A program made the translations under genes and the position numbers. Shown here piece by piece: positions 6,456 to 50,954 of a stretch of DNA of 64,000 bases. Position 1 is the first letter of the stretch, and the number at the start of each line of letters is the position of its first letter. Under the pieces are notes generated by a model. It was not told the DNA's origin, did no database searches, and worked only from the letters and a program-made list of their open reading frames with translations. Source of the DNA: an uncultured Aquimarina sp. (lineage in GTDB: Bacteria; Bacteroidota; Bacteroidia; Flavobacteriales; Flavobacteriaceae); the NCBI GenBank assembly GCA_947498785.1, contig CANMLS010000029.1, positions 1 to 64,000 of the forward strand, in the 5' to 3' direction.

Positions 6456-8993
6456 TTATTTTCGGATAAGCTTTCTGGTTTTTATCACCTTACCATTCTT
6501 ATCACTAATTGAAAGTAAATAAATTCCAGAATGATTAACTTTAGGTAATATGATACTACTCTTTGATGCCGATAAGATATCTTCTTTGTGGACTACTTTA
6601 CCTTGTAAATTATAGATAATTACAGTATAATTACTATTCGATTTCGATAAAGGTGTAGAAATATTAATCGTATTTGTAAATGGATTTGGGTGAATACTAA
6701 ACATTTCTTTTTCTTTTAGTGGAGGAAAGTTTATTTCTTTAGTATTTTTAATAGCTCGATCTCCACAGGCACCTAGATTTTTCCAATCTGATGCTATACG
6801 CTCGAATAAATTGCCCTGATATGTGACGTTATCTCCAACACTATAACTTATATCACTTTGCCAAGCAGGTATCCCAACACAAATATCTGTTGATCCTCCA
6901 TTTTCATACGAATAATTTATTATCAATTTAGGTGCTTTACTAGATCCACCTTCATATGAATCTGCAACTCTTTTTGCCGATGTACTACTCAGACTTACAC
7001 CTCTTCCTCTTATGATAAAACTAATATTATTACCCGATGTCCAGCCATTTCGATATACCAGACTTTGTACCATTGATTTTAAATCTGGTGAACGTTGTCT
7101 ATTTCCATTTTCATTTCTAGACCAGGATTGCGGGTTCCAGATTACTTTATTAGCAAAGGTAGATCTGCCAGATACGTTATTAGATGAAGAAAATGCAGGC
7201 GAATTACGACTATCATGTAATGAAATTTCTAATGAGGCACTTGCACTATTACTTTCATCTGCTGTAAATTGTAAATATGCATTGTTTATAGTTGCATTTT
7301 TTGGTATGTTAATAGTTCTAAATCTTAATCCAATCACTTGATAGCTTGAGTTATTACTACTATCATATACGAATTCTAAATCACTACTATTTGTGTACAA
7401 ATCTCCATTTTTATCTTCTTCAACATCATCGTTTCCATTAGTGATAGAAGTATCTACCGTTCCTGTTTGACCTCCTGAACCATCTAATGTTGTTACTCTC
7501 TTTGTATTACTAAATCTAGAGACATTACCCGCAGCATCTTTTGCTCTAATTTTAAAAGCATATGAAGTATTAGGAGATAATCCTGTAACATTATACACTG
7601 TCGAACTAATGGTTTCTATTTTTGTATTGTCTTGATATACATCATATCCTGACACTGCTACATTATCGGTAGAAGCATTCCAATCTAAAGAAACTGAACT
7701 TGATGTTAGATTTAATGATGTCAGATTAGTTGGAGTTGATGGTGCTTCAGTATCTGGTGTAGTTACTGTAGAGTTAATAGTAACAACACTACCATTAGAT
7801 GGGTTCCAAATATCCAAATTACTTGGGATTGCAAACACATTATTGTTAGATACTGATCCTACTTGTGACGCGTTATTTACATTAATTGTTCTTATTTCAA
7901 TTTTATTTTCATCTACAAAAATCCATTTAAACTGATTAAACCTAGCAGAATTACGAGTCCAACTTTTGTTATCATTATTAGATCGCAATGGTGCTCCCCA
8001 ACAACCTTCTCCTGCGTATACAGTTCCATTAGCATCGTCTCTTACAAATCCTTCATCATTTCCGGATCCGTTAGTTGGTCTTAACGGCCACGTAGTTTTC
8101 ACCGTATGGGCATCACATTCGATAACTAATTTTACTCCTTTATTATAAAAAAGATTTGCCCAATTACGATATTGACTATTCCCTTCTCTCTTTGAAGAAA
8201 CATGAGGTCTCATAGGCTTATGATATTGAGCCATTTTCCAAACAGTATTGGGGTTTGCATTTAAATCGTTTCGCAACCATGTTGTTTGACTTCCAGAAAT
8301 AGATATTTCTGTATTCAACGTATATGTTCTTATTAGGTTTTGACCAAATGTAATTGCATAATATATATTTGATGAAGGCACATCAAAAAGGTTATAGATA
8401 CTATTATTACTATCTTCATGATTTCCTCTTGTAGCTACAATTGGAAACATTCTATTATCAGTTGCTATTGTTAATTGCCAATCATCGAACCATTTTCTCC
8501 ATTCAGAACTACTGTCTCCATTAGTCATATCTCCTCCAAATAATACTGCATGTGGTTTTAGTTTAGCCACCAAACTATTTGCTTTTCTACGTGGTGTTCT
8601 ATTATTACGAGAGTCTCCTCCCGCAATAAAAGATAATCTACTATTGTTTGATGGTGCTGTTTTAAACCAAAAACGTTGACTAGTTCCTTGGCTATCTCTT
8701 ATAACAAAATAATACGCTGTATTAGGAGTCAATCCTCTAAGACGCGCAAAATTATTATTCATTCCTTTATAAGAAATAGTTCTGTCTGGGGTTTTTAAAT
8801 TGGAATAGCTGTTATAATCGGTTCCAAAATCGGTTGTCCCATAATACACTGTAGGGTTACTTCCAGAAGTTTGATCCCACCCAATCACTATAGAAGTTGC
8901 TGGATTACCTCTTACTGTTAATCGATATTTACCATTAGAAGCCTGAATTTGTAATGTTATAAGAATCACAAACAAAAAATAGAGTTTTTTCAT
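6456..8993 (-). CDS. T9SS-exported metallophosphoesterase with FN3, DNRLRE-like and CBM5/12-like modules
   Basis: An 845-residue multidomain secreted protein. After a signal peptide (1-18) comes a purple-acid-phosphatase-like N-terminal beta domain (about 20-115), then a calcineurin-like phosphoesterase with metal motifs GGDSRNN (125-131), GGDMTN (153-158), GNHE (190-193) and a later CDAHT. Next are an FN3 domain (about 418-505), a DNRLRE-type beta module (about 515-695), a short CBM5/12-like segment (CVGIPAWQSDISYSVGD, about 703-745) and a T9SS type A sorting tail starting IHPNPFTN (about 767-845). It is predicted to be surface-bound or released, with phosphatase or nucleotidase activity at a polymer surface. 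It is a paralogue of the gene next to it. Confidence 0.9.
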   Translation of the reverse strand: MKKLYFLFVILITLQIQASNGKYRLTVRGNPATSIVIGWDQTSGSNPTVYYGTTDFGTDYNSYSNLKTPDRTISYKGMNNNFARLRGLTPNTAYYFVIRDSQGTSQRFWFKTAPSNNSRLSFIAGGDSRNNRTPRRKANSLVAKLKPHAVLFGGDMTNGDSSSEWRKWFDDWQLTIATDNRMFPIVATRGNHEDSNNSIYNLFDVPSSNIYYAITFGQNLIRTYTLNTEISISGSQTTWLRNDLNANPNTVWKMAQYHKPMRPHVSSKREGNSQYRNWANLFYNKGVKLVIECDAHTVKTTWPLRPTNGSGNDEGFVRDDANGTVYAGEGCWGAPLRSNNDNKSWTRNSARFNQFKWIFVDENKIEIRTINVNNASQVGSVSNNNVFAIPSNLDIWNPSNGSVVTINSTVTTPDTEAPSTPTNLTSLNLTSSSVSLDWNASTDNVAVSGYDVYQDNTKIETISSTVYNVTGLSPNTSYAFKIRAKDAAGNVSRFSNTKRVTTLDGSGGQTGTVDTSITNGNDDVEEDKNGDLYTNSSDLEFVYDSSNNSSYQVIGLRFRTINIPKNATINNAYLQFTADESNSASASLEISLHDSRNSPAFSSSNNVSGRSTFANKVIWNPQSWSRNENGNRQRSPDLKSMVQSLVYRNGWTSGNNISFIIRGRGVSLSSTSAKRVADSYEGGSSKAPKLIINYSYENGGSTDICVGIPAWQSDISYSVGDNVTYQGNLFERIASDWKNLGACGDRAIKNTKEINFPPLKEKEMFSIHPNPFTNTINISTPLSKSNSNYTVIIYNLQGKVVHKEDILSASKSSIILPKVNHSGIYLLSISDKNGKVIKTRKLIRK

Positions 8994-9128
8994 TTTACAT
9001 TTAAGTTAGTGGTTTAAAGAGATATTCTTTATTTGTGCTTAATATTTAATATGCTAGGTTATCTCTATGAATTCTACAGAATGTATAAAAATGAATATAC
9101 TTTCTCAAAATTCCAAAGTATTAATTTA

Positions 9129-11516
9129 TTATTCTTTAAGCACTTTTTTAGTAATTAATGTAAATCCGTTTTGATCTATAACTTGGATAATATATATTCC
9201 TTTATCCAGAATTTCTGGACGAATACTTACTCCGTTATTTCGTATTTGTTTATTTTTAGAAAACACTTTTCTTCCGTTAGCATTATATATTTCAATAGTT
9301 ATTTCTTTATCTGATATTGGAATCAAAATATTTAGCTGTTGTCGAAAAGGGTTAGGGTGAACTTTGATTTTTTGTAATTCTGTATCTGGTAGTATATTGG
9401 ATTGAGCAACCTCTTCTTTTTTAATTTTAGTTCCCATTTTAGAGGTTCTTCCAAAAGTATAGTTTACAATTAACTTTGCTGCTTTACCAGAACCTCCTTC
9501 ATACGAACTTGCAACACGCTTATATTTGGTTCTCCACGAGCTTTTCCCCTTTCCTCGTATAATAAAACTCATACTATTTCCAGGGCTCCAACCGGTTTTA
9601 TTAACCACTTGTTGTACCATTCCTTTAAGGTCAGGTGTTCTTTGTAAAGGACCACTTTGTCCTGCGATCCATGGATTAGGTTTCCATCGTATTTTATGTG
9701 ATACTACATTCCTGTCAGAGACATTATTTTTATTTGTGAATTGAGGTGAATCATCACTGTTATGTAAGGAAAATTCAAGTTCTGCCCGTTTACTATTACT
9801 TTCATCAGCAGTAAATTGTATGTATGCACTATTTATTATTGCACCTTGAGGTAATGCTATATTCTGAAAACGAATACCTACTTTCTGAAAACTTATTAAA
9901 TTTGTGGAGTCATATACCAATTCTAAATCACTACTATCAACATATAGCTGACCAATAATATTTTCTTCAACATCGTCAAACCCTTCAGTTACCGGAACTG
10001 TGAGATTACCTGAAAACTGTCCTACGTTTACAAAAATTTCCTTTTCGCTACACAACTCATGATCATCAAACGCTATTGCTTTTAAAGCATGAATTCCATC
10101 TGACAACCTTCTCAAGGTGCTATATGGAGCGTTTATATCAGTAGTAATTAAATTTCCATCTACATAAAATTCGACTCTATCAATTTGACCATCTTCATCT
10201 GTAGCATTTACTTCAAAGGAAATAATATTTCCACTTGGTAGTTGTTGTCCTTCAAATGGCTTAGTAAAAGAAACCTGTGGTGCTTTTAAATCTGGGTTTA
10301 CGATCTTAACTACGCTTCCATTAGAGGGGTTCCATATATCCAGATTAATAGGGATTTCGAATACATTATCATTAGAAACTTCTCCTACCTCTAATGCATT
10401 ATCCACCTTTATGGTTCTGGTTTCTATTTTTGCTTCGTCAACAAAAATCCATTTAAATTGATTGAATTTTCCAGAATCTCGTGTCCACCCTTTTATATCA
10501 TCATTATTTCTTAGAGGTGCTCCCCACCCTCCTTCTCCAACATATACCGTTCCTCGATTATCTCTTTTAAACCCTTCCTCACTTCCAGAACTTGTAGAAG
10601 GACGAAGTGGCCATGTGGTTTTTACTGTATGTGCATCGCATTCTACAACAAGTTTTACTCCTTTTTCGTAAAACAAATTAGCCCAATTTACATATTCAAT
10701 TAAGTTTTCTCCTTTGGAAGACACATGAGGGTGAATAGGAAAATGATATTGAGCTATTTTCCATGTTACATCTATATTTGCATTTAAATCGTTTCTTAAC
10801 CAATCGGTTTGTCCTCCAGAAATGGCATCAAGAGAATTTAATGTATAGGTACGTACCAAATCACGTCCAAAAGTAATCGCGTAATGTACATTTGAAGATG
10901 GTACATCAAACAAATCTGTAATGGTTTTATTACTCCTTTCATGATTTCCTCTAGCAGCTAAGATCGGAAACATTCTTCCATCATCGGCGATTGTTAGTTG
11001 CCAATCATTAAACCAGGTTTTCCATTGAGAATCGCTATCATTATTAGTCATATCTCCTCCAAAAAGTACCGCATGCGGTTTGAGTTTTGCGACTAAGCGA
11101 TTTGCTTTTTGTCTCGGTGTTCTATTATTTCTTGAATCTCCTCCTGCTATAAAAGAAAATTTACCGTTCACCAAAGGTGCCGTTTTAAACCACAACCTTT
11201 TACTTACTCCTTCACTATCTTTGATTACAAAATAATAGGCTGTATCTGGTGTTAGTCTAGACAAACGAACAAAATGATTATTCATTCCTCTATAGGAAAC
11301 AATTCTGCTGGGAGGGGCCGAATACCTGTACTCATTATAATTAACCCCATGGTCTACAGAACCATAATATACCACAGGATTGCTTCCTGAAATCTGGTTC
11401 CATCCAATAACAATTGAAGTACCTGGATTATCCCTTAACATTAGCCTGTATTTATCATTAGATGCTTGAGTTTGTAACCCTATTATGACTACAATTAAAA
11501 GGCAGATTTTTTTCAT
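9129..11516 (-). CDS. T9SS-exported metallophosphoesterase with Ig-like and DNRLRE-like modules
   Basis: A 795-residue paralogue of the 6456-8993 gene. The signal peptide, N-terminal beta domain and phosphoesterase (GGDSRNN, GGDMTN, GNHE, CDAHT) are strongly conserved. The middle differs: instead of FN3 it has a bacterial Ig-like domain (about 408-500, with FYVDGNLITTD and DGIHALKAIAFDD). A DNRLRE-type module follows (about 505-690), and then a T9SS tail from VHPNPFRQQL. The CBM5/12-like segment is absent. The 135 bp between the two genes hold no obvious terminator, so read-through into the downstream copy is possible. Confidence 0.9.
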   Translation of the reverse strand: MKKICLLIVVIIGLQTQASNDKYRLMLRDNPGTSIVIGWNQISGSNPVVYYGSVDHGVNYNEYRYSAPPSRIVSYRGMNNHFVRLSRLTPDTAYYFVIKDSEGVSKRLWFKTAPLVNGKFSFIAGGDSRNNRTPRQKANRLVAKLKPHAVLFGGDMTNNDSDSQWKTWFNDWQLTIADDGRMFPILAARGNHERSNKTITDLFDVPSSNVHYAITFGRDLVRTYTLNSLDAISGGQTDWLRNDLNANIDVTWKIAQYHFPIHPHVSSKGENLIEYVNWANLFYEKGVKLVVECDAHTVKTTWPLRPSTSSGSEEGFKRDNRGTVYVGEGGWGAPLRNNDDIKGWTRDSGKFNQFKWIFVDEAKIETRTIKVDNALEVGEVSNDNVFEIPINLDIWNPSNGSVVKIVNPDLKAPQVSFTKPFEGQQLPSGNIISFEVNATDEDGQIDRVEFYVDGNLITTDINAPYSTLRRLSDGIHALKAIAFDDHELCSEKEIFVNVGQFSGNLTVPVTEGFDDVEENIIGQLYVDSSDLELVYDSTNLISFQKVGIRFQNIALPQGAIINSAYIQFTADESNSKRAELEFSLHNSDDSPQFTNKNNVSDRNVVSHKIRWKPNPWIAGQSGPLQRTPDLKGMVQQVVNKTGWSPGNSMSFIIRGKGKSSWRTKYKRVASSYEGGSGKAAKLIVNYTFGRTSKMGTKIKKEEVAQSNILPDTELQKIKVHPNPFRQQLNILIPISDKEITIEIYNANGRKVFSKNKQIRNNGVSIRPEILDKGIYIIQVIDQNGFTLITKKVLKE

Positions 11517-39497: not shown

Positions 39498-42185
39498 TTA
39501 GAACCTATAACTCGCTTTAAGCAGTACATACCTTGGCAACAATCTATATTCTGTACTGGAAATATTGGTATCGTTCACCAAATAGTTTCTAAAGTTTTCT
39601 GTATTTAATAAATTATTCCCCACCAAAGAAAGGCTCAAAGCCTTATTTTTAGGCTTATAATTGATTTCAAAATCTACAAAATAATAAGTGTCATCATTAC
39701 TTTGTAGATTATTAAAATAATAGCGTTCTGATTGTAATTGCAGATTAAACCTAGAATTCAAGACGAATGAAAGGTCCAGAAAAGATGTATTTTGTGTTGC
39801 TGTATTTGTTGCGCTTATTGTCTCAATTTCTGTTATGTCCCAGGTTGTACCAAAATGATAATTAAAAACTCCTCTAAACCCAGATCTTATTTCGAAACCA
39901 TATTTATAATTCTGATTTTCTACTGATCTTAAACTAGTACTATTTACTATGTTTTTAAACTCTGTCTGTGAGTATGAAAATTTAATTTTAATATTATTTC
40001 TAATGAATCTTACATATCGATCTAAACTACTGTTAACCCTATAAAACTCCCTATCAGGAATAATTAATTTTGTGGTTTGTATGACATTTTGCGTGATTAT
40101 AGAATTAGTACTTAGAAAGTCGTTATCTTTAATATATGATAATCCAATATTAGCAATAAATCTATCTCCAAAATTACCCAGATTATATCCTGCAAATATT
40201 CTAGTAGAGCTAAGCTGATTGAATTCTCCTGTTCCTCTTGAAAAATTCCTATAACCTGTACTTATATAATTACTATAAAGATCTGATATGTTGGCATTAG
40301 AATTTGTATTTTCTGCATAAGCAAAAACTCTGTTTGCTTTATTAATCTCCCAGTCAAAACTCAATTTCGAATTTACTAAAAAAGGAGACTCCTCTAATTT
40401 TTGATTGGTCTCATCTAAGTTATTAAACAACTGATGTCCTTCTATATTTAAACCTATACTAGTATTGTTTAACTTTTTTCTATACCCTGAACTCAAATAC
40501 AGATCGTGTGTCTGATATTGAATCGTATTCTTATATTCTTGTGGATTAAGTATGGTATTTTCATTTTCTTTTAGAAAAAAATCAGAAAACAATTCATCTT
40601 CTCTGAATTCGTAACCCATACTAAAATCCAGTAAATCTTTATTCTTTTTTCTATCTAGTACATGAGCTTTTATCCCAGTATACTTAAATTCATTTTCACT
40701 AAATTGTTGTATTCTATTTACTTCTTGAACGTTGGAAAATAACTCCTCAAATAAAAATTGGTTAGTGGTATACTCCTGAGGTTTTTTCTCATTAATATAC
40801 CTAGCTGTTAATAGCAGTATCTTATTATCTTTAAACCTATCACTATATTTGATCATATGATCATGCAACCCATTGGTATCATCTAGCTCTTCATTATTTT
40901 CGAGATCGTTGAATACTAATTGAGAACCTGTTTTTATTGATGATGTATTATATTTTCCTTCATATTCTAACATCTTGGTTTCTGAGATGTCATAGTTTAA
41001 CTCAACTCTTCCAAACCCAACATTGGTTGTTTTACCTAAAGCATAATTTTCTGTATTGGTAAATGACGAGGCGTTTATAAAAAAAGTATCAAATCCTTCA
41101 CTAAAAAATTGAGTATTATCTGAGTTAAATAATCCAAGTACTTTTACATTAATTTTAGAAGACAACTTAAAAATAGAGTTTAAAGAAACTAACTCTGCGT
41201 TATTGAAGTTTGTTCTCATCTTCTTTAATCCTGGCACCTGAGCTCCCAAAGTAATCAGGGAGTATGCTCTTTGATTTTCTCCCAACATACCAGGTTCATC
41301 ATTATAATTTTGAGATTCGATTAAACCTCGCACATCATCTGTTACATCTTCACCGGTGTTATTAAGGCTTCCTAATAAGAAATATTTGTTTTTTTTACCA
41401 AAACTAGATATTGTTGCATCTATGTCATATCTGTCCTCTGAAACCACTCCATAACCAGGTGATACACTTCCAAACCATTCTCGTTTAAAATCTTCATCAA
41501 GTTTTAGATTAAGTGCTACTTTTTCACTCTCTTCAATCCCTTTTAATAGTTTATTATTGGAGTACCGTCGAAGAACCTCAACTTTATCAACCGCATCTAC
41601 ATTTAGATTTTTAGTGAGTAATTTATATCCTTTTTTAAAGAAATCATCGCCCTCTACCATTACTTTTTCGACCTCTTTTCCATCTACTTTTATGATACCT
41701 GTTTCTGAAACATCAACACCGGGTAATTTTTTAAGCAAATCCTCGATAACTGTCTCTTCTCCTTGTTTAAAAGAAGAAGCATTAAAAACAATCGTATCTT
41801 TTTTTTCTGTGATAGCTCTCTCTGAAGCAATGATCACTTCATCTAACTCGTATGATGTTGCAAATAAGACTACATCTTTTTTGATTGTCGTATTACTTTC
41901 TAAAGTAATCTCAACATCTTGTTTTGCATATCCTAAGCCTGAAAAACTTAAGGTTAATTCTCCTATGGCATCCGATTGCAGTACATACTTACCTTTTTGA
42001 TCGGTATAAGCAAAAGCGATGATGCTTTGAGAATCTTTTTGTTTTAAAAACACATTGGCCGATGCAATAGGATTTGATATAGAATCTGTTACCGTACCCG
42101 AAACGGTAGATTGGGCAGATAAAATATTGCCTAATAGAAGAAATATTAGGCAATATTTATACTTTATAAGTTTATGATATATCAA
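39498..42185 (-). CDS. TonB-type outer-membrane receptor of the GLPGLI operon
   Basis: An 895-residue outer-membrane protein. The signal peptide ends ILSAQ (about 1-25). A CarboxypepD_reg-like domain (STVSGTVTDSISNPIASANV, about 26-110) is followed by a plug (about 130-230: LLKKLPGVDVSETGIIKVDG, KEVEKVMVEGDDFFKKGYKL) and an outer-membrane beta-barrel of the OMP_b-brl_3 type ending in VLLKASYRF. The plug lacks a long TonB-box-like lead. It is the last gene of the operon and its ATG overlaps the ninth GLPGLI stop (4 bp), so translation is coupled. The ligand is unknown, but coupling to GLPGLI proteins is strong. Confidence 0.9.
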   Translation of the reverse strand: MIYHKLIKYKYCLIFLLLGNILSAQSTVSGTVTDSISNPIASANVFLKQKDSQSIIAFAYTDQKGKYVLQSDAIGELTLSFSGLGYAKQDVEITLESNTTIKKDVVLFATSYELDEVIIASERAITEKKDTIVFNASSFKQGEETVIEDLLKKLPGVDVSETGIIKVDGKEVEKVMVEGDDFFKKGYKLLTKNLNVDAVDKVEVLRRYSNNKLLKGIEESEKVALNLKLDEDFKREWFGSVSPGYGVVSEDRYDIDATISSFGKKNKYFLLGSLNNTGEDVTDDVRGLIESQNYNDEPGMLGENQRAYSLITLGAQVPGLKKMRTNFNNAELVSLNSIFKLSSKINVKVLGLFNSDNTQFFSEGFDTFFINASSFTNTENYALGKTTNVGFGRVELNYDISETKMLEYEGKYNTSSIKTGSQLVFNDLENNEELDDTNGLHDHMIKYSDRFKDNKILLLTARYINEKKPQEYTTNQFLFEELFSNVQEVNRIQQFSENEFKYTGIKAHVLDRKKNKDLLDFSMGYEFREDELFSDFFLKENENTILNPQEYKNTIQYQTHDLYLSSGYRKKLNNTSIGLNIEGHQLFNNLDETNQKLEESPFLVNSKLSFDWEINKANRVFAYAENTNSNANISDLYSNYISTGYRNFSRGTGEFNQLSSTRIFAGYNLGNFGDRFIANIGLSYIKDNDFLSTNSIITQNVIQTTKLIIPDREFYRVNSSLDRYVRFIRNNIKIKFSYSQTEFKNIVNSTSLRSVENQNYKYGFEIRSGFRGVFNYHFGTTWDITEIETISATNTATQNTSFLDLSFVLNSRFNLQLQSERYYFNNLQSNDDTYYFVDFEINYKPKNKALSLSLVGNNLLNTENFRNYLVNDTNISSTEYRLLPRYVLLKASYRF

Positions 42186-42985
42186 TTATAAAGTTCTTTA
42201 GTTCTATTATTTCTTTTTGGGCATCTATCACATTCGTGATCCTGAGCTAGTCGTGCTCCTTTTGGTAAAGATGTACGAGCTCTAGCCATAGTATTTTCGT
42301 ATTCATTTTTTATAGCATCTATATATACTGACATTGACTGAATTTTCTTAACATCATCGGGAATAACTAATTTTTCTTTTACAACTAAAGGTTTTACACC
42401 TAGCTCTATTTTAGCAATTTCATATTTATACTTATTCGTCTTATCAGTTGCTTCTACTATTAGCCCTGGTAATCCTCTTAATTTCCATGGACCATAAGAA
42501 ATAGGTACTTCTGTAGTGAACCAAACGGTATATTCTCTCCCTCGAAATGGAGCTGTAGCTTTCTGACATTGATATATACCTACTTTTTTAAATTCATCAT
42601 GTAATTTCCATGGTATCGTTTCTATACTATCTTTTATGGTATATAATTCTTGTGATACGGTTTCTCTAAACACTAATTCTTTTTTATTTAAATCACTAAA
42701 ATAAAAGGAAGGTTTTTTACTTTTTAAAATTTTTATCTCAGTTCGTATCGTAGTTGCTCCCCTAATTTCTTCCTTTGGTTTATGTATAGGGTTAGTTTCC
42801 TTGGATTTTATATACATTGACGTATTACTATCAAAATACAACTTCCAAGTACTTGTAAATGATATACCATTTGGATTGTTTACTATATTGTAATAGGTAG
42901 CAATACCTGTTTGTATCTTTTCTTGAGCAATCAGAGAGTTCACCAATAAAGTGATCAATGCTGCTAAAAATTTTAATCTATTCAC
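42182..42985 (-). CDS. GLPGLI family protein, copy 9 (last)
   Basis: A 267-residue secreted protein, signal peptide ending SLIAQ. It carries YQCQKATAPFRGREYTVWF, the family core KLRGLPGLIVEA and a C-terminal CDRCP. It is the most divergent copy: the tail ends RNNRTKELYN, unlike the ERFD or LEIFK tails of the others. The stop overlaps the TonB receptor start, so it is the copy most tightly coupled to the receptor. The family is Bacteroidota-specific and of unknown function. Confidence 0.9.
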   Translation of the reverse strand: MNRLKFLAALITLLVNSLIAQEKIQTGIATYYNIVNNPNGISFTSTWKLYFDSNTSMYIKSKETNPIHKPKEEIRGATTIRTEIKILKSKKPSFYFSDLNKKELVFRETVSQELYTIKDSIETIPWKLHDEFKKVGIYQCQKATAPFRGREYTVWFTTEVPISYGPWKLRGLPGLIVEATDKTNKYKYEIAKIELGVKPLVVKEKLVIPDDVKKIQSMSVYIDAIKNEYENTMARARTSLPKGARLAQDHECDRCPKRNNRTKELYN

Positions 42986-42993
42986 TATATCAT

Positions 42994-43797
42994 TTATTTA
43001 AATATCTCTAAACTAAGATCCTCTGCTTTGGGGCATTCATCACAATCTCTTTTAAATTTCAAATCCCTATCCGATGATGATGCTATTATCATCGCCTCAA
43101 TATCCTTTTGCCTATTTTTGATAGCGTTAATATATTTTTCTATACTTGAAGTATTTTCAATTTTTGGTTTTTTTAATTTTTCATTGACTTCTTTTATATC
43201 AGGGTTTAAGTTTACTCGAGCAATTCTAAAACTAAATTTGGCTCTATCTTCCTCTGCTTCCATAATTAAACCAGGCAACCCCCTTAATTTCCATGGGCCA
43301 TGGGATACTGGTATCTCTGTAGTAAACCAAACCGTATAGGTTCTCCCTCTATAAAACCCAACAGCTTTTTGACAAGAATATCTTCCTATTTTTTTATTAT
43401 CGGTAGCTAATTCCCATTTAATATTGGCTATATTATCTTCTGTAACTGTATATAGTTTTTTTGCTATTTCTTCCTGAAAGATTAATTGTTTTTTTTCTAA
43501 ATTGGTATATACATAATCCTTTGACAAATAGCTTTCTATAACTTTTCTTTCGGTTACTTCTCCTGTTATTTCTGTTAGATTCAAGTCATCTATATTATCA
43601 ATACGTTTAGACTTTCCATTTCTAATATGTAAAGAATGTTTATTATTAAAATAAAGCCTATAAGGTCTTGCAAAAGTAGTTCCGTCGGGGTTATTTATAA
43701 CAAAATGATAATCAACAATACCATTTACTTGGTTTTGCCCATTAACATGAATACTTATTCCTACTACAAATACTATATACAGAAGATACCCTTTCAT
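42994..43797 (-). CDS. GLPGLI family protein, copy 8
   Basis: A 267-residue secreted protein (signal ending HVNGQ). It has YSCQKAVGFYRGRTYTVWF, the GLPGLI core and a CDECPKAEDLSLEIFK tail (class B). Its central part is closest to copy 2 (both have RIDNIDDLN), while its N-terminus is shared with copy 7, so it looks mosaic. It lies 8 bp upstream of copy 9. Confidence 0.92.
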   Translation of the reverse strand: MKGYLLYIVFVVGISIHVNGQNQVNGIVDYHFVINNPDGTTFARPYRLYFNNKHSLHIRNGKSKRIDNIDDLNLTEITGEVTERKVIESYLSKDYVYTNLEKKQLIFQEEIAKKLYTVTEDNIANIKWELATDNKKIGRYSCQKAVGFYRGRTYTVWFTTEIPVSHGPWKLRGLPGLIMEAEEDRAKFSFRIARVNLNPDIKEVNEKLKKPKIENTSSIEKYINAIKNRQKDIEAMIIASSSDRDLKFKRDCDECPKAEDLSLEIFK

Positions 43798-43809
43798 TTT
43801 AATTTATAA

Positions 43810-44604
43810 TTAATCAAATCGTTCTAGGCTATAATTTTTAGGATCTGGACAAATATCACAATCTGTTGCTAATCTTGCCCCTCTAGGCAAAGAAGCTCTA
43901 GCCATCGCCATTGTGTTTTTATACTTATTTTTAATAGCTTCAATATAATTCTCCATGGTTGTAATCCCTTTTGTATCCGGTTTTTTTATTTTTTTTTGTA
44001 ACAACTCCTTATCTGGATTCAAGTTTACTGCATTTGCAACAAATCCATATTTGCCAGTTTCTTCTGTAACTTCTAGAATTAAACCTGGTAATCCTCTTAA
44101 TTTCCATGGACCATGAGATACTGGTATCTCTGTAGTAAACCAAACCGTATACTCTCTACCTCTATACTTTGCTATGGCTTTCTGACAATTATAGTTTGCT
44201 ATTTTTTTATGCTTTTGTTGTAATTTCCAAGATATAGGTTCTAAAATATCTTCTACAAGATACATAGCTCTTACTATTTTTTGTCTAGAAATTAATTCCT
44301 GATTTTTTGTATTGGTATAATAAAAAGGCTGAGGGAGATTGCTTTTCATAATATTTTTGGTTACTACATTATCATTCAATCCAACACTCACTTTCTTTGA
44401 TTTATCACTTACTTCTCTAACTGTACCTACTTTTGTATAATATGTAGTATTTTGATCAAAGTACATTTTAAAAGGATTGGCAAAAGTTGAACCATCAGGA
44501 TTATTTATAACAAAATGATAATCAACAATACCATTTACTTGGTTTTGCCCATTAACATGAATACTTATCCCAAGTATAAAAACTATGTACAGAAAATTTT
44601 TCAT
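43810..44604 (-). CDS. GLPGLI family protein, copy 7
   Basis: A 264-residue secreted protein. The N-terminal third (GISIHVNGQNQVNGIVDYHF) matches copy 8, but from about residue 86 to the end it is identical to copy 6 apart from one Ile/Val change (CDICP against CDVCP). Class A tail (PDPKNYSLERFD). The mosaic shows recent gene conversion or unequal crossing-over within the array. It is 12 bp upstream of copy 8. Confidence 0.92.
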   Translation of the reverse strand: MKNFLYIVFILGISIHVNGQNQVNGIVDYHFVINNPDGSTFANPFKMYFDQNTTYYTKVGTVREVSDKSKKVSVGLNDNVVTKNIMKSNLPQPFYYTNTKNQELISRQKIVRAMYLVEDILEPISWKLQQKHKKIANYNCQKAIAKYRGREYTVWFTTEIPVSHGPWKLRGLPGLILEVTEETGKYGFVANAVNLNPDKELLQKKIKKPDTKGITTMENYIEAIKNKYKNTMAMARASLPRGARLATDCDICPDPKNYSLERFD

Positions 44605-44616
44605 TTTAGTTTGTAG

Positions 44617-45405
44617 TTAATCAAATCGTTCTAGGCTATAATTTTTAGGATCTGGACAAACATCACAATCTGTTGCTAATCTTGCCCCTCTAGGCAAAGA
44701 AGCTCTAGCCATCGCCATTGTGTTTTTATACTTATTTTTAATAGCTTCAATATAATTCTCCATGGTTGTAATCCCTTTTGTATCCGGTTTTTTTATTTTT
44801 TTTTGTAACAACTCCTTATCTGGATTCAAGTTTACTGCATTTGCAACAAATCCATATTTGCCAGTTTCTTCTGTAACTTCTAGAATTAAACCTGGTAATC
44901 CTCTTAATTTCCATGGACCATGAGATACTGGTATCTCTGTAGTAAACCAAACCGTATACTCTCTACCTCTATACTTTGCTATGGCTTTCTGACAATTATA
45001 GTTTGCTATTTTTTTATGCTTTTGTTGTAATTTCCAAGATATAGGTTCTAAAATATCTTCTACAAGATACATAGCTCTTACTATTTTTTGTCTAGAAATT
45101 AATTCCTGATTTTTTGTATTGGTATAATAAAAAGGCTGAGGGAGATTGCTTTTTATCATAGTATGGGTTACTTGATTTCCATTGATATTATCAACTTCTT
45201 TTTCATTATCCACTCGCTTGGCATCACCTGTTCTAATAAAAAAAGAAACTTCGTTATCAAAATATAAAGTATAGGGATTGGCAAAAGCTATACCATCAGG
45301 CTGTGTGATTGTCATAAAATAATCAACTTTACCTGTTACCTTTTTTTGTGCATGTAGGAAAGATATTGAGATTAAAAATGTTAGCAGATATAAAAGCTTT
45401 TCCAT
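44617..45405 (-). CDS. GLPGLI family protein, copy 6
   Basis: A 262-residue secreted protein (signal ending FLHAQ). The N-terminal 85 residues are unlike copy 7 (KKVTGKVDYFMTITQPDG), but the remaining 177 residues are shared with it. Class A tail with CDVCP. The three conserved cysteines (one in the CQKA motif, two in CxxC) are kept. Confidence 0.92.
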   Translation of the reverse strand: MEKLLYLLTFLISISFLHAQKKVTGKVDYFMTITQPDGIAFANPYTLYFDNEVSFFIRTGDAKRVDNEKEVDNINGNQVTHTMIKSNLPQPFYYTNTKNQELISRQKIVRAMYLVEDILEPISWKLQQKHKKIANYNCQKAIAKYRGREYTVWFTTEIPVSHGPWKLRGLPGLILEVTEETGKYGFVANAVNLNPDKELLQKKIKKPDTKGITTMENYIEAIKNKYKNTMAMARASLPRGARLATDCDVCPDPKNYSLERFD

Positions 45406-45415
45406 TTGATATTAT

Positions 45416-46210
45416 TTATTTAAAAATCTCTAAACTAAGATCTTCTGCTTTAGGGCATTCATCGCAATCACGTTTAAACTTCATATCCCTATCAGACGAT
45501 GCTGCCATTAGCATCGCTTCAAAATCTTTTTGCTTGTTTTTAATAGCTATACTATAGTTTTTCATATTAGAAAATTTTTCAACTTCAGGTTCTTTAAGCC
45601 TTTCACTAATCACATTTTCATGTGGATTAAGATCTACTTTGGTGGCCCTAAAACCATATTTGTTTTTCTCATCAGCAGCTTCCATTATTAAACCAGGTAA
45701 CCCTCTTAATTTCCAGGGACCATGAGATACGGGAATTTCTGTAGTAAACCAAACTGTATAGGTTCTCCCTCTATAAAACCCAACAGCTTTTTGACAATCA
45801 TATTGACCTATTTTCTTATGATCATTGGATAACTCCCATTTAATATTGGCAACACTATCCTTTACCACAAAAAGTTTTTGATTTACTCCTTCTCTAAAAA
45901 TTAATGTATTCTCACTCGGATTAGTATATACATAATTCTTTGGCAAAGTACTTTTTATAATCTTTTCTTCAATCATTTTACCGCTTATCAACACCATGTT
46001 TTCATCCTTTTCAGTTATACGTTTTGATTCTCCATTTTTAAGGTACAAAGATTTATTATTATTAAAATAAAGTTTATATGGATTGGCAAAAGAAACACCA
46101 TTTGGGTTATTGATTATAAAATCATATTGAACAATACCATTTACTTGGTTTTGCGCATTAACATGAATACTTATTCCTACTACAAATACTATATACAGAA
46201 GTCTTTTCAT
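45416..46210 (-). CDS. GLPGLI family protein, copy 5
   Basis: A 264-residue secreted protein. The first 27 residues (MKRLLYIVFVVGISIHVNAQ and on) are identical to copy 4. The middle has YDCQKAVGFYRGRTYTVWF and the GLPGLI core, and the class B tail (DCDECPKAEDLSLEIFK) is identical to that of copy 8. It lies 10 bp upstream of copy 6. Confidence 0.92.
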   Translation of the reverse strand: MKRLLYIVFVVGISIHVNAQNQVNGIVQYDFIINNPNGVSFANPYKLYFNNNKSLYLKNGESKRITEKDENMVLISGKMIEEKIIKSTLPKNYVYTNPSENTLIFREGVNQKLFVVKDSVANIKWELSNDHKKIGQYDCQKAVGFYRGRTYTVWFTTEIPVSHGPWKLRGLPGLIMEAADEKNKYGFRATKVDLNPHENVISERLKEPEVEKFSNMKNYSIAIKNKQKDFEAMLMAASSDRDMKFKRDCDECPKAEDLSLEIFK

Positions 46211-46222
46211 TTTAGTTTATAA

Positions 46223-47014
46223 TTAATCAAACCGTTCTAGGCTATGATTTTTTGGATCGGGACAGACATCACAATCTGTCATAAACTTTGCTCCTCTTGG
46301 TAATGATGATTTAATCTTAACTCTAGTTTCTTCAAATTTGTTCTTAAGTGCTTTTTTATAGACTGTCATATTAGTGATTTTATCTACCAATGGTTTATTA
46401 AGCTTTTCTTGAACCATTTTATCATCAGGCTGTATATCTATTTTAATAGCTCTAAATTCAAACTTACCTGTTTCTTCAGTAGCTTCCAGAATCAAACCAG
46501 GTAATCCTCTTAATTTCCAAGGACCATGTGATACTGGAATCTTTGTAGCAAACCAAACGGTATATTTTCTGCCTCTGTACTTTGCTGTTGCTTTTTGACA
46601 GGTATAATTTCCTATTTCTTTATGTTCTGCATGTAGTTCCCAAGAAATAAAATCAACACTATCCTTTACCTCATAAAGTTTATCAACTATGGTTTCTCTG
46701 AAAATTAGCTCATTTGTGCTATTATTAGTATAATAATCCACGGGGCTGTTACTTTTCATAACTTTATCTTCTGAAATAGTTGTAGTACCTTCTCTTCTCT
46801 CTTCTCTAAATTTATTAGCAACCCTTTGAGGATTACCAATTTTTTCATAAAAAGAAATAGTATTGTTAAAATATAACTTGTAAGGGCTTGCAAAAGAAAC
46901 ACCATTTTCATTGTGGATAATATTTTGATAATCCACAATACCATTTACTTGGTTTTGCGCATTAACATGAATACTTATTCCTACTACAAATACTATATAC
47001 AGAAGTCTTTTCAT
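46223..47014 (-). CDS. GLPGLI family protein, copy 4
   Basis: A 263-residue secreted protein with the same signal as copy 5. It has YTCQKATAKYRGRKYTVWFA, the GLPGLI core and a class A tail (CDVCPDPKNHSLERFD). It shows a small difference, ATKIPVSHGP where most copies read TTEIPVSHGP. It is 12 bp upstream of copy 5. Confidence 0.92.
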   Translation of the reverse strand: MKRLLYIVFVVGISIHVNAQNQVNGIVDYQNIIHNENGVSFASPYKLYFNNTISFYEKIGNPQRVANKFREERREGTTTISEDKVMKSNSPVDYYTNNSTNELIFRETIVDKLYEVKDSVDFISWELHAEHKEIGNYTCQKATAKYRGRKYTVWFATKIPVSHGPWKLRGLPGLILEATEETGKFEFRAIKIDIQPDDKMVQEKLNKPLVDKITNMTVYKKALKNKFEETRVKIKSSLPRGAKFMTDCDVCPDPKNHSLERFD

Positions 47015-47026
47015 TTTAGTTTATAA

Positions 47027-48001
47027 TTAATCAAATCTCTCTATTAAGTAATTATCGGGATCGGGGCAATGATCACAATCAGGACCTTTAAACAATAATT
47101 TAGCCCCCTTTGGTATGCGGGTTCGAGCAATTGCCATTTGATCCTCAAAAGCATTCTTCACTGCATTTTTGTATACTTCAAAATCTTTTATATTTTTTGT
47201 CTTCGGCTTTTTTAATTTTTCTTTGATTACATTTTGATCTGGATTTAAATCGATTTTTGAAACCCTAAATCCATATTTACCTGTGCTTTCTGAAACCTCC
47301 ATAATTAACCCAGGAAGACCTCTGAGTTTCCAGGGACCAATATCAACAGGAATATCTGTGGTAAACCAAACGACAAAATCCCTTCCTCTAAAGGTAGTCA
47401 TAGCTTTTTGACAACTAAAGTTATCTATTTGCTTTTTTTCATCAACTAAAGTCCAATTAATGGATTCTAATGTGTTTTTGATTTCATAAGTTCTTTCTGC
47501 CACTTTTTCTTTGAATATGATTTCATTATCTTGTTTATTTATATAATAAAATTCATAGAATTTACTTGGTATTACTTTTGATGACCTAATGTTTCCAAAT
47601 TTATCTAATTCTCCGTCTTTGACTACTTCGGTTATTTTTTTTCCACTACCAGATTTTATATAAAATGATTCGTTGTTATTAAAATAAAGAATATGCGGCG
47701 TAGCCCAAAGTTCTCCCGAAGTATTTCTCAATAATTTATTATAATGTATAACTCCTGATTGGGCTAGTGCAACGTTTTCCAAGATAAAAATGTAGTAGTA
47801 TACTATATTTCTAATTTTAAAAGTAAAAACCATTTCTGTAAATTTTAAAGTTTGATATAGTTTATGAGAGGTTTCAGAAAAAATATCATTCTTATTACGA
47901 ACCATAAAATCATATTGTATAATGCCCGCAAACTGATCTTGAGCAGGTGCAACAAAAATCTGTATTAAAATCAATAAAAAGCAAATTAATAATTTATTCA
48001 C
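47027..48001 (-). CDS. GLPGLI family protein, copy 3, with fused remnant of another copy
   Basis: The open frame is 324 residues, about 60 longer than its neighbours. Residues 57-324 (from ATG 47833) make a complete copy: a second signal peptide (MVFTFKIRNIVYYYIFI, ending ALAQ), FSCQKAMTTFRGRDFVVWF, the GLPGLI core and CDHCP with an ERFD tail. The first 56 residues are a separate GLPGLI N-terminus (signal MNKLLICFLLILIQ, ending APAQ, then FAGIIQYDFMV) that breaks off. This is best read as an in-frame deletion fusion. Either start may be used; 47833 gives the normal length of 268. Confidence 0.88.
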   Translation of the reverse strand: MNKLLICFLLILIQIFVAPAQDQFAGIIQYDFMVRNKNDIFSETSHKLYQTLKFTEMVFTFKIRNIVYYYIFILENVALAQSGVIHYNKLLRNTSGELWATPHILYFNNNESFYIKSGSGKKITEVVKDGELDKFGNIRSSKVIPSKFYEFYYINKQDNEIIFKEKVAERTYEIKNTLESINWTLVDEKKQIDNFSCQKAMTTFRGRDFVVWFTTDIPVDIGPWKLRGLPGLIMEVSESTGKYGFRVSKIDLNPDQNVIKEKLKKPKTKNIKDFEVYKNAVKNAFEDQMAIARTRIPKGAKLLFKGPDCDHCPDPDNYLIERFD

Positions 48002-48010
48002 AACATGATT

Positions 48011-48817
48011 TTATTTAAAAATCTCCAGACTAAGATCTTCTGCTTTCGGACATTCTTCGCAATTTTCTTTAAATTTAATGTCTCTTCTAGAAGATGAAGC
48101 TCTATACATAGCGTCAAAATCTTTTTGTCTGTTTTTAATTGCCATTCTATATCTATCCATATTTGAGAGTTTTCCTACCTCTGGCTTTTTTAATCTTTCT
48201 AAAACTTCTTTTTTATCAGGACTTAAGTTTACTCGGGCAACTCTAAAACTAAATTTGACTCTATCTTCTTCTGCTTCCAAGATTAACCCCGGCAATCCCC
48301 TTAATTTCCATGGACCATGAGATACTGGTATCTCTGTAGTAAACCAAACCGTATAGGTTCGTCCTCTAAAAAATCCAACAGCTTTCTGGCAGGTATATTT
48401 TCCTATTTTCTTATTTTCGGCAGATAGTTTCCATTTAATAGTAGCAGCACTATCTTCTGCCACAGTATACAGTTTTTTTACTATTTCTTCTTGAAAAATA
48501 AATTCCTTGTTTTCAAGATCTGTATATACATAATCCTTTGGTAGATCGCTTTGTATATCCATTCTCTCAAGCACTTTATCAGTTATCTCCATCTCATTTA
48601 GATCATCTATATTATCAATGCGTTCAGCCCAACCATTTCTAACATGAAAAGAAATTTTATTATTAAAGTAAAGTTTATATGGCCTTGCAAAAGTAGTCCC
48701 ATCAGGGTTATTTATGATAAAATGATAATTGACAATACCCGTAAACTGATCTTGTGCTTTTGTGGTTATTGTATTACCAATTGTAAATACAAACACTAAA
48801 TATAAAATCTTCTTCAT
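48011..48817 (-). CDS. GLPGLI family protein, copy 2
   Basis: A 268-residue secreted protein (signal 1-22 ending TTKAQ). Cys143 in YTCQKAVGFFRGR, GLPGLI at 174-179 and Cys253/Cys256 (CEECP) with class B tail AEDLSLEIFK. It resembles copy 8 along much of its length (INNPDGTTFARPYKLYFNN). It is 12 bp downstream of copy 1. Confidence 0.92.
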   Translation of the reverse strand: MKKILYLVFVFTIGNTITTKAQDQFTGIVNYHFIINNPDGTTFARPYKLYFNNKISFHVRNGWAERIDNIDDLNEMEITDKVLERMDIQSDLPKDYVYTDLENKEFIFQEEIVKKLYTVAEDSAATIKWKLSAENKKIGKYTCQKAVGFFRGRTYTVWFTTEIPVSHGPWKLRGLPGLILEAEEDRVKFSFRVARVNLSPDKKEVLERLKKPEVGKLSNMDRYRMAIKNRQKDFDAMYRASSSRRDIKFKENCEECPKAEDLSLEIFK

Positions 48818-48829
48818 TTTAGTTCATAA

Positions 48830-49621
48830 CTATTCAAATCTTTCTAAACTTCTATTATTTGGGTCTGGGCATTCATCACAACCTTCTAATAATTTAGCTC
48901 CCCTTGGTAGAGATGCCAATAACATTGCTCTTTCCTCTTTGGCTTTATTTTTTATAACTTCTTTGTACTTATCTAAATCAACTATACCCTTAGTGTCTGG
49001 TTGTTGTAACTTATCCTTCACTTTTTCAGTTTTAGGATTTAGATTGATTTTAATTGCTCTGAATTCATATTTCCCAGTTTCTTCGGTAACTTCTAGAATT
49101 AAACCTGGTAATCCTCTTAATTTCCATGGACCATGGGATACAGTAATTTCTGTAGTAAACCAAACTGTATACTCTCTACCTCTATACTTTGCTATGGCTT
49201 TCTGACAATCATAGTTCGCTATTTTTTTATGCTCTTGTTGTAATTTCCAAGGTATCGTCTCTAAAGTATCTTGAACTATATAGGATTTTTGTACTATTGT
49301 TTCTCTAAATATTAAATTATTAGACTTTATATTGGTATAATAGTAAGAAAATGGTAAACTAGTCTTCATAATTCTTTCTGTTACTTCTTCCTCATTTGGT
49401 TCATAAGATTCTTCTCTATTTTTATTTATTTTTTTAGCATCTCCGATTCTTTCATACATAGAAGTTTCATTATCAAAATAAAGCCTATAATGAGTTCCAA
49501 AAGAAGTACCTGTCGTATTATTAATAATTCTATTGTAATCTACTATAGCTGTTAATGCTTCTTGAGCATACAATCTATATGTAGCAATTACAACTAAAAA
49601 AAAGAATATATACTTGTTCAT
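48830..49621 (-). CDS. GLPGLI family protein, copy 1 (first)
   Basis: A 263-residue secreted protein (signal 1-20 ending RLYAQ). Cys139 in YDCQKAIAKYRGREYTVWF, GLPGLI at 170-175, and Cys248/Cys251 in CDECPDPNN, tail SLERFE (class A). It follows the small Cys peptide gene by 54 bp, the largest gap in the operon. Its core is like copies 6 and 7 (KLQQEHKKIANY). Confidence 0.92.
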   Translation of the reverse strand: MNKYIFFFLVVIATYRLYAQEALTAIVDYNRIINNTTGTSFGTHYRLYFDNETSMYERIGDAKKINKNREESYEPNEEEVTERIMKTSLPFSYYYTNIKSNNLIFRETIVQKSYIVQDTLETIPWKLQQEHKKIANYDCQKAIAKYRGREYTVWFTTEITVSHGPWKLRGLPGLILEVTEETGKYEFRAIKINLNPKTEKVKDKLQQPDTKGIVDLDKYKEVIKNKAKEERAMLLASLPRGAKLLEGCDECPDPNNRSLERFE

Positions 49622-49675
49622 TTTTATACTAATTTTTTTAAATTTAAACCGTTTCTGTGTACTCTTATTATTTTA

Positions 49676-49873
49676 TTAACATTCTTCTACAAGAATCCCA
49701 ATTACATCACCATGCTCATTATAAGTACGTACGATTCTAGTACAATATGTATCATCTTCTGATACAATTTTTATAACATTGTCCTCTTCAACATTCATTT
49801 TATTATTACTACCTACTGCATATGTTGCATATGCACTTAAAAATATTCCTAAAGTTAAAACGATTTTTTTCAT
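49676..49873 (-). CDS. Small secreted two-cysteine peptide heading the GLPGLI operon
   Basis: A 65-residue protein with a signal peptide (1-19, ending YATYA). The mature part is acidic and ends in cysteine: Cys44 in DDTYCTRIVRTYN and Cys65 as the last residue (GILVEEC). The two could form a disulfide, or the C-terminal Cys could be attached to something. It is the first gene of the operon and is likely made in the largest amount. I do not recognise a family. A role as ligand, cargo or structural partner of the GLPGLI/TonB set is inference from position only. Confidence 0.75.
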   Translation of the reverse strand: MKKIVLTLGIFLSAYATYAVGSNNKMNVEEDNVIKIVSEDDTYCTRIVRTYNEHGDVIGILVEEC

Positions 49874-50215
49874 ATTAAATCAAATTTTAAAAATTAATGA
49901 TTTGTATTTTATTATATACTTACAGAAACGGTTTTCTTTTTTATTCAATCCAAAATCAATAGCATTTTTATATAGTACTTCTATCTTATTACAATAAGAA
50001 ATAAGTGCATACCATCAATTTGATATTGATTAATAAAATTTATGTTGAAAATCCGATTACTGGGTAGGATAGTTGTATCGAATAGCAATACAATACTACA
50101 ACATATTTTGAATAGGTTAAATATGGTAATCGCGTAATATTTTTGTGGTCGCTATGTGATTTACACAAAATCAAGCCAATAGGAGTATATTTTACATCTA
50201 TTTTTTTTTGAAATA
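49874..50215 (-). promoter_or_regulatory. Upstream region of the GLPGLI operon
   Basis: About 340 bp between the first operon gene and the terminator of the preceding gene. It must hold the operon promoter, but no perfect TAnnTTTG element is visible on the minus strand. No LytTR-like box pair is seen here. A 76-codon open stretch inside it has no signal, ribosome site or family features. Confidence 0.4.
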
Positions 50216-50270: not shown

Positions 50271-50954
50271 CTACTCTTCTTCATCAGTTCCATTATTAGA
50301 AGTGTTTCTAGATGGTGGTCGATATAATTCTCTTTTGGCTGGTTGATCTTCGAATACATTATCTGCTGCAGCATTGATCTTACGCAATATTGCATACAAA
50401 TCGTTTAATCGTTCTACACGATCTGCTGTATCTACAGTACGTGTACCTTTTTTTTGTTCTTGTTCTTTATTAGCACCCCGTAAGGTTTCTGCTAATTCTT
50501 GTGATTGATCCAGAAACCCTGATGATGCTCCTGCTTTTTCAAGCTCTATGCGATACCGTTTAATAGTATCTTTAAGCCCTTCCATATACTGGATCATCTT
50601 GGTTTGATTATCTTTTATTTTAGTAAACCCGCTAATACCAAATTGTTTTTGTATGGCTTTCTTGCCAGGAAACGCATCTAACACCCAATATTTTAATCGT
50701 TTAAAATACTTCTGACAAGTTTGCATAGCTTCTTCTACAACCTCTGTTTTTTGTCTTAATTGTGCCAGGTTAATGTTGTCTCCTCCTTCTGCAAAACCAT
50801 CGGTTACTTGCTTTTCTAAATTAGTCAAAAAATCCTGATTTAATTTTTTATCAAATGCAGAGAATGCCTTAATATCCGTTTTTAAATGTTCTGAGGTAGT
50901 ATCTCCCCATTCTAATAGCGAACTGTCACTATATGGATAGTTTCTTCTTGACAT
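50271..50954 (-). CDS. Hypothetical coiled-coil protein
   Basis: A 227-residue soluble protein with no signal peptide or membrane helix. It is strongly helical and charged (QLRQKTEVVEEAMQTCQKYF, RYRIELEKAG), with an acidic, Asn/Ser-rich tail. A segment KYWVLDAFPGKKAIQKQFG is the most distinctive part. No family is recognised. It stands alone on the minus strand with a strong terminator after it and a minisatellite upstream. Confidence 0.7.
   Translation of the reverse strand: MSRRNYPYSDSSLLEWGDTTSEHLKTDIKAFSAFDKKLNQDFLTNLEKQVTDGFAEGGDNINLAQLRQKTEVVEEAMQTCQKYFKRLKYWVLDAFPGKKAIQKQFGISGFTKIKDNQTKMIQYMEGLKDTIKRYRIELEKAGASSGFLDQSQELAETLRGANKEQEQKKGTRTVDTADRVERLNDLYAILRKINAAADNVFEDQPAKRELYRPPSRNTSNNGTDEEE

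Follow-up and report, generated by a model that had tools for sequence, protein, structure and literature searches.

The 64,000-nucleotide stretch analysed here (positions 1 to 64,000 of contig CANMLS010000029.1, assembly GCA_947498785.1, from an uncultured Aquimarina sp. of the Flavobacteriaceae; hereafter the window) carries on its minus strand eleven open reading frames (ORFs): a gene for a small secreted cysteine peptide, nine tandem GLPGLI genes, and a gene for a TonB-type receptor. Comparison with relatives suggests that many Flavobacteriaceae carry a polymorphic module of which this locus is an enlarged version. An earlier, sequence-only reading had placed the same eleven genes on this strand, and each matched an ORF exactly. 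The features are listed below from the receptor upward, with the GLPGLI copies numbered g1 to g9 from the peptide end. Loci of relatives carry L numbers, and a, b and c are types of Aquimarina peptide, defined further on.

39498..42185, minus strand: receptor gene (ORF).
42182..42985, minus strand: GLPGLI g9, receptor-proximal type (TIGR01200, tree).
42994..43797, minus strand: GLPGLI g8, in the clade of type c first copies (TIGR01200, tree).
43810..44604, minus strand: GLPGLI g7, pair of g6 (TIGR01200, copy comparison, tree).
44617..45405, minus strand: GLPGLI g6, grouping with the L100 first copy, type a (TIGR01200, tree).
45416..46210, minus strand: GLPGLI g5, in the clade of type c first copies (TIGR01200, tree, predicted bowl fold).
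46223..47014, minus strand: GLPGLI g4, grouping with the L100 second copy and type b first copies (TIGR01200, tree).
47027..48001, minus strand: GLPGLI g3, 324 amino acids (ORF, TIGR01200, copy comparison).
48011..48817, minus strand: GLPGLI g2, in the clade of type c first copies (TIGR01200, tree).
48830..49621, minus strand: GLPGLI g1, peptide-proximal, grouping with the L102 first copy, type a (TIGR01200, tree).
49646..49658, minus strand: 13-bp inverted repeat, 3' arm; minus-strand sequence ACAGAAACGGTTT.
49676..49873, minus strand: gene for a 65-amino-acid peptide (ORF).
49922..49934, minus strand: 5' arm of the 13-bp inverted repeat; minus-strand sequence AAACCGTTTCTGT.

The nine GLPGLI ORFs together cover 42182 to 49621. 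Measurement bore out the close packing described earlier: neighbouring GLPGLI genes are 8-12 bp apart, and the receptor gene overlaps the last of them by 4 bp. The peptide gene lies 54 bp from g1. A single transcript of peptide, nine GLPGLI genes and receptor is plausible, since the sole minus-strand terminator-like match of a terminator scan sits within the receptor gene.

All nine copies are members of the TIGR01200 / PF09697 family, whose function is unassigned: they scored 136.6-163.5 bits against TIGR01200 (curated cut-off 50 bits), and all three copies scanned against Pfam passed the PF09697 (Porph_ging) cut-off. They were the only TIGR01200 matches in the genome (9 of 18 scored candidates; 5.67 Mb, 195 contigs), and GLPGLI genes were found in 241 of the 299 searched genomes of the bacterial family. 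Protein identity between the nine ranges from 36 to 80%, and the recombination marks and diversification of copies that had been noticed in the sequence were both supported: the first ~90 nt of g4, g5 and g8 are 98-100% identical with a divergent remainder, and g6 and g7 are 98-100% identical over roughly their last two thirds. The count of nine genes likewise stood, with an amendment for g3, whose ~65 additional N-terminal residues (~47807-48001) resemble the remaining start of an otherwise deleted tenth copy, joined on in frame. Structure prediction gave a LolA/RseB-like bowl fold (mean predicted local distance difference test score, pLDDT, of 88.7 for the g5 model), and it is from this predicted structure that the likeness to LolA, RseB and MucB derives. 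A bowl-like domain also forms the N-terminus of PNGase F-II type enzymes (4R4X, 7ZGN), whose catalytic PNGase domain the window proteins lack; in the excerpted text of PMC9522356 the function of this N-terminal domain is called unknown.

The window peptide begins with a Sec-type signal (about residues 1-19, judged by hydropathy), followed by a variable linker and the C-terminal core CTRIVRTYNEHGDVIGILVEEC, its two cysteines being residues 44 and 65. No GG cleavage motif precedes the core in this peptide, which reads MKKIVLTLGIFLSAYATYAV..., and no Pfam or NCBIfam family matched it at a convincing score. We aligned it with 66 of 72 candidate peptides (six were omitted as spurious or from other modules); searches of these 67 against NCBIfam and Pfam gave scattered weak matches to many families (best E 2e-4, single members), and searches of peptides against the Protein Data Bank gave nothing below E 0.02, with matches chiefly to the signal sequence. 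For the receptor, g5 and the peptide, the anti-phage defence collection PADLOC (E 0.01) returned 0 families and PHROGs no match. At L104, L105 and L108, short ORFs up to about 5 kb upstream of the receptor carry a motif like that of a GG leader (SIKGG, LIKGG, YIVGG).

The outer-membrane receptor (895 amino acids) comprises a signal, a CarboxypepD_reg-type domain, a plug-like domain and a barrel resembling that of TonB-dependent transporters. Its earlier description as TonB-type was upheld by the predicted fold, which has the plug and barrel of such a transporter, and not by family search: Pfam recognised a CarboxypepD_reg-type domain at the N-terminus but neither a plug nor a barrel family. 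When 299 family genomes were searched, with 3 candidates per genome scored, the matches listed included a close receptor group (36-47% identity, E < 1e-170), then a thin tail and a distant bulk at about E 1e-67 and weaker.

The 13-bp inverted repeat encloses exactly the peptide gene, and the exact 13-mer occurs at only these two sites in the genome. Of 10 Aquimarina loci, 8 have a significant stem of 13-17 bp around the peptide gene; in these eight the core of the 5' arm is constant, and differences in the 3' arm preserve pairing via G-U. As RNA, the stem-enclosed stretch folded better than all 100 shuffles (z -4.7). An invertible switch was considered and dropped, because a constant 5' core, 3' changes that preserve pairing and a motif present nowhere else fit an RNA stem better. 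The stem is possibly an RNA element that sets expression of the peptide apart from that of the GLPGLI genes. Outside Aquimarina, a stem at p ≤ 0.05 was seen in 5 of 56 loci, near chance.

Receptors 66-88% identical to that of the window were present in 10 of 65 other genomes of the genus, where one or two GLPGLI genes immediately precede them, and 8 other Aquimarina genomes have a peptide match (E < 1e-4) directly upstream of a GLPGLI gene. More widely, we examined the best 80 of 296 relatives' loci, named and from many genera, among which the closest receptors are those of A. algiphila (88%), A. atlantica and A. macrocephali (both 81%). A peptide with at least two cysteines lies within 200 bp before the GLPGLI gene upstream of the receptor in 64 of these 80. 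Copy number was counted at the 62 loci with at least 2.5 kb upstream: 45 modules have one GLPGLI gene, 12 have two, one has three, one has four and 3 have none, and the window array of nine is the largest among the loci compared. A retained peptide-GLPGLI-receptor locus of varying copy number, as the sequence-only reading had anticipated, was thus found in relatives.

Over 81 loci, a small secreted ORF with at least two cysteines precedes 73 of 90 first-in-array GLPGLI genes versus 10 of 734 other genes, 0 of 28 later GLPGLI copies and 0 of 91 receptors, in a count of genes of at least 150 amino acids with at least 400 bp upstream; the peptide rule was fixed after inspecting the loci, and control genes were judged by the identical rule. 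Judged from sequence, the basic unit in relatives is three genes: a Sec-type secreted cysteine peptide, usually one GLPGLI, and the receptor. Among 30 other high-scoring GLPGLI loci of the wider family, 22 have a receptor-like ORF within 1.5 kb and only 3 have a peptide; because of this low count outside the receptor clade, peptide-linked GLPGLI loci would seem to be one clade and not the whole GLPGLI family. Most of these high-scoring TIGR01200 / PF09697 loci thus occur without a peptide, whereas in the clade of the window the gene is paired with a hypervariable secreted one. Judging by search-result entries, a literature search found no described peptide-GLPGLI system, and in the available parts of PMC9603813, PMC8757827 and PMC5771137 GLPGLI genes are merely itemised.

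Several loci depart from the basic unit. L076 (G010:C1) has tandem repeats of the whole module, with at least five peptides, five GLPGLI genes and one full receptor, and short fragments resembling receptor starts between the repeated peptide/GLPGLI units. At L117 and L101, which are the same locus, a second GLPGLI gene and a 90-amino-acid receptor-start fragment lie ~3.3-4.3 kb upstream of the receptor, and what we take to be a transposase end is found ahead of the peptide gene. In upstream modules of L160, L189 and L192, with other receptor types, the GLPGLI gene is preceded by helical-looking peptides with a different cysteine pattern; peptide-GLPGLI pairing may be wider than this receptor clade.

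In the alignment of 67 peptides M1 never varies, and at least 90% have K2 and the two cysteines. We compared identity at the start of each protein with that of the rest at 63 of the 81 loci. In the peptide, mean identity is 43% over the first 20 residues and 23% in the mature part (matches over shorter length), the signal being the more similar in 1769 of 1953 pairs; the corresponding values are 34 vs 31% for GLPGLI (start higher in 1164 of 1953) and 29 vs 57% for the receptor (25 of 1953). Among the 93 locus pairs with receptors more than 75% identical, the mature-peptide similarity score S was below 0.25 in 79 and above 0.45 in 11 (99% of shuffled peptide pairs score below 0.18), and in 40 pairs the peptide signal was also at least 80% identical. 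The sequences thus show a peptide with a conserved Sec-type signal and a cysteine-containing mature part that is replaced between loci, beside a TonB-fold receptor that stays alike. At the DNA level, L150 and L156 have similarities of 0.86 in the 5' region, 0.97 in the signal, 0.52 in the mature part, 0.63-0.73 in GLPGLI and 0.84-0.89 at the receptor start; this pattern of leader and receptor alike with the middle unlike is clear in only some of the 17 hand-picked pairs compared, and at L142/L154 the receptor start is no more similar than the middle. Positive selection on the mature peptide is not claimed, because many dS (synonymous divergence) values are saturated.

We then asked which part of the module varies with the mature peptide. 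The set comprised 81 non-redundant modules (60 from L114-L193, 20 from L074-L113, and the window), and the main runs used the 72 that remain when Aquimarina orthologues are excluded. GLPGLI proteins were aligned from 8 of the 9 window copies (g3 was omitted because its start is fused) and from 95 of 103 candidates; receptors were aligned in one set of 23 of 41 and another of 55 of 81. L097 was paired with its last GLPGLI in the 81-module set, with first-copy values used in the type comparisons below; being an Aquimarina orthologue, it leaves the 72-module results untouched. In Mantel tests against the mature peptide, the N and C parts of GLPGLI gave r 0.193 and 0.187 (p 0.001 each), the GLPGLI core -0.061 and the whole receptor 0.02. 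The 61 single-copy loci gave 0.162 for the N part, 0.168 for the C part, -0.096 for the core and -0.002 for the receptor. By sliding segments, the signal in GLPGLI extends across the variable stretches 21-120 and 181-260, with none at 121-180, and the receptor has a weak signal in its first 90 residues only. When 28 pairs with similar peptides were matched for receptor identity (3 had no match), the GLPGLI N and C parts were more similar in 25 of 25. By Mantel test, the mature peptide thus covaries with the variable halves of GLPGLI, but not with the GLPGLI core or with the plug and barrel of the receptor. A partner that changes with its effector is what toxin-immunity pairs display, and the module would resemble them in this respect, the effect being small.

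Within Aquimarina, peptides were sorted by eye into types a (window, L100, L102), b (L095, L096, L099) and c (L094, L097 and, less surely, L103), and a tree was built from 26 GLPGLI proteins. In this tree g1 sits with the L102 first copy, and g6/g7 with the L100 first copy. Copy g4 groups with the second copy of L100 and the first copies of the three type b loci, which fall in one clade and are 72-96% identical in their variable parts; g2, g5 and g8 group with the second copy of L096 and the first copies of the three type c loci, again one clade, at 34-54% identity. Copy g9 groups with the receptor-proximal copies of L095 and L097 and is 85-94% identical to them across its three regions. In type a, the window and L102 are 67-79% identical in the variable parts. 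Receptors do not explain the types, because L095 and L097, with receptors 90% identical, are b and c, and the window and L094, at 88%, are a and c; between L095 and L097 the second GLPGLI genes have a DNA similarity of 0.90 and the first copies of only 0.65. The window itself is type a and has array members in the b and c clades, and so it would carry relatives of partners for two peptide types that it does not encode.

We favour, at slightly short of even confidence, a reading in which the peptide is polymorphic and has a periplasmic partner of its own, and the array is a repertoire of such partners that most likely provides orphan immunity. GLPGLI would cradle the peptide in its LolA-like bowl and neutralise or otherwise handle the matching form, and the peptide would exit, or foreign versions would come in, via the receptor. 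In the array, g1 and perhaps g6/g7 would be partners of the window's own peptide and g9 a constant, receptor-linked copy; g4 for type b, and g2, g5 and g8 for type c, would be orphan immunity against kin peptides. Peptide-GLPGLI binding, immunity and any toxicity are inferred here. Besides the position of the peptide gene, the covariation, the clades and the predicted fold, this reading draws on the ratios of nonsynonymous to synonymous divergence (dN/dS) given below and on L116 (A. muelleri), which at about 8500-9200 lacks a peptide gene and has a changed 5' repeat arm, and which retains one GLPGLI gene and the receptor. At slightly lower confidence, the module may belong to an undescribed, widespread self/non-self peptide system of Flavobacteriaceae, with hypervariable cysteine-bridged peptides behind a conserved signal (conotoxin-like), a private GLPGLI and a TonB-fold gate that stays constant; strains would gather partners against or for kin peptides.

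Several observations weigh against the favoured reading. The peptides have no clear toxin feature. The Mantel correlations are small (r about 0.2) and the loci are related by descent; peptide and GLPGLI genes are neighbours, and therefore co-inheritance is expected. The receptor-matched pairs share loci and hence are non-independent, and in 23 of the 25 the GLPGLI core was more similar too. A class-based test, with the window included among 73 'others', found same-class receptors slightly more similar (0.534 vs 0.499, p 0.026), and the same holds for plug, barrel and signal (p 0.013-0.049). There is also a correlation between the receptor and the GLPGLI C part (r 0.131, p 0.005), and a weak one between the peptide and the N-terminal domain of the receptor (r about 0.10). 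The peptide types were sorted by eye only; type a first copies lie outside the b and c clades yet do not form one clade, and window g1 is no closer to the L100 first copy (N part 39%, C part 54%) than to copies of other types. L101 fits no group, and the second copy of L096 is c-like though the locus is type b.

Among other explanations, the one that survives best, though we think it unlikely, makes GLPGLI an export chaperone that folds the peptide and passes it to the TonB-fold protein for secretion, the extra copies being leftovers of earlier cassettes. The predicted bowl fold suits such a role, as do covariation with one-to-one pairing in most loci and the weak covariation of a receptor N-terminal domain that may face the periplasm. 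Nine intact copies beside a single peptide gene do not, and orthologue pairs of the window copies (g3 excluded) gave dN/dS ratios of about 0.16-0.41, with some dS values saturated, hence below 0.5 in the pairs tested. L116 further speaks against a chaperone, and TonB-fold proteins are mostly importers.

Only slightly less likely, in our estimate, is uptake or signalling, in which the peptide would be a pheromone or ligand-binding carrier that returns via the receptor, GLPGLI a periplasmic binding protein, and the array a means to read or take up relatives' peptides. This would accommodate the constant receptor, a diversified peptide with a covarying partner, copies related to partners of other types, and the peptide-less L116; the eleven ORFs, however, include no regulator or inner-membrane importer, and there is no known ligand.

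We find it less likely again that linkage alone accounts for the covariation, with mature peptide and GLPGLI co-travelling as neighbours between two conserved recombination arms and no functional match. Conserved leader and receptor around a differing middle, as in L150/L156, and the core similarity among matched pairs are what it would predict. Yet the core lies between two covarying parts and has no Mantel signal, and the highest r of the sliding-segment analysis (0.207) falls at residues 241-260 towards the C-terminus, at a greater distance from the peptide.

The view of the sequence-only reading, that one receptor is served by many GLPGLI variants which bind variable ligands or attackers from outside, the peptide being secondary, draws on copy number, mosaic recombination and the conserved receptor, and we consider it very improbable, with GLPGLI diversity tracking the mature peptide more than the receptor and most loci having a single GLPGLI.

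The favoured reading has counterparts in bacteriocin-immunity pairs and contact-dependent inhibition (CDI) toxin/immunity cassettes, which also combine a conserved leader with a replaced effector part, an adjoining partner that changes with the effector, and arrays of orphan partners. Unlike these, the window's eleven genes include no toxin domain, CdiA/CdiB or lysis gene that we could see; the partner family and fold also differ. Bacteroidetocins and other double-glycine peptides are likewise small secreted cysteine peptides of Bacteroidota, whereas the window peptide has a Sec-type signal in place of a GG leader. The covariation suggests a testable role for one GLPGLI clade, namely to recognise a hypervariable secreted peptide specifically. 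A self/non-self peptide system, if real, would be the first function assigned to the GLPGLI family; were the array one of orphan partners, it would reveal that kin competition or recognition has a common layer, so far unseen, among marine and freshwater Bacteroidota, as well as a supply of small cysteine peptides with ready-made binders.

Upstream of the operon, at 50271-50954, lies an ORF of 227 amino acids that matches the PQLLE family below threshold (E 3.7e-9, 36.6 bits, cut-off 80).

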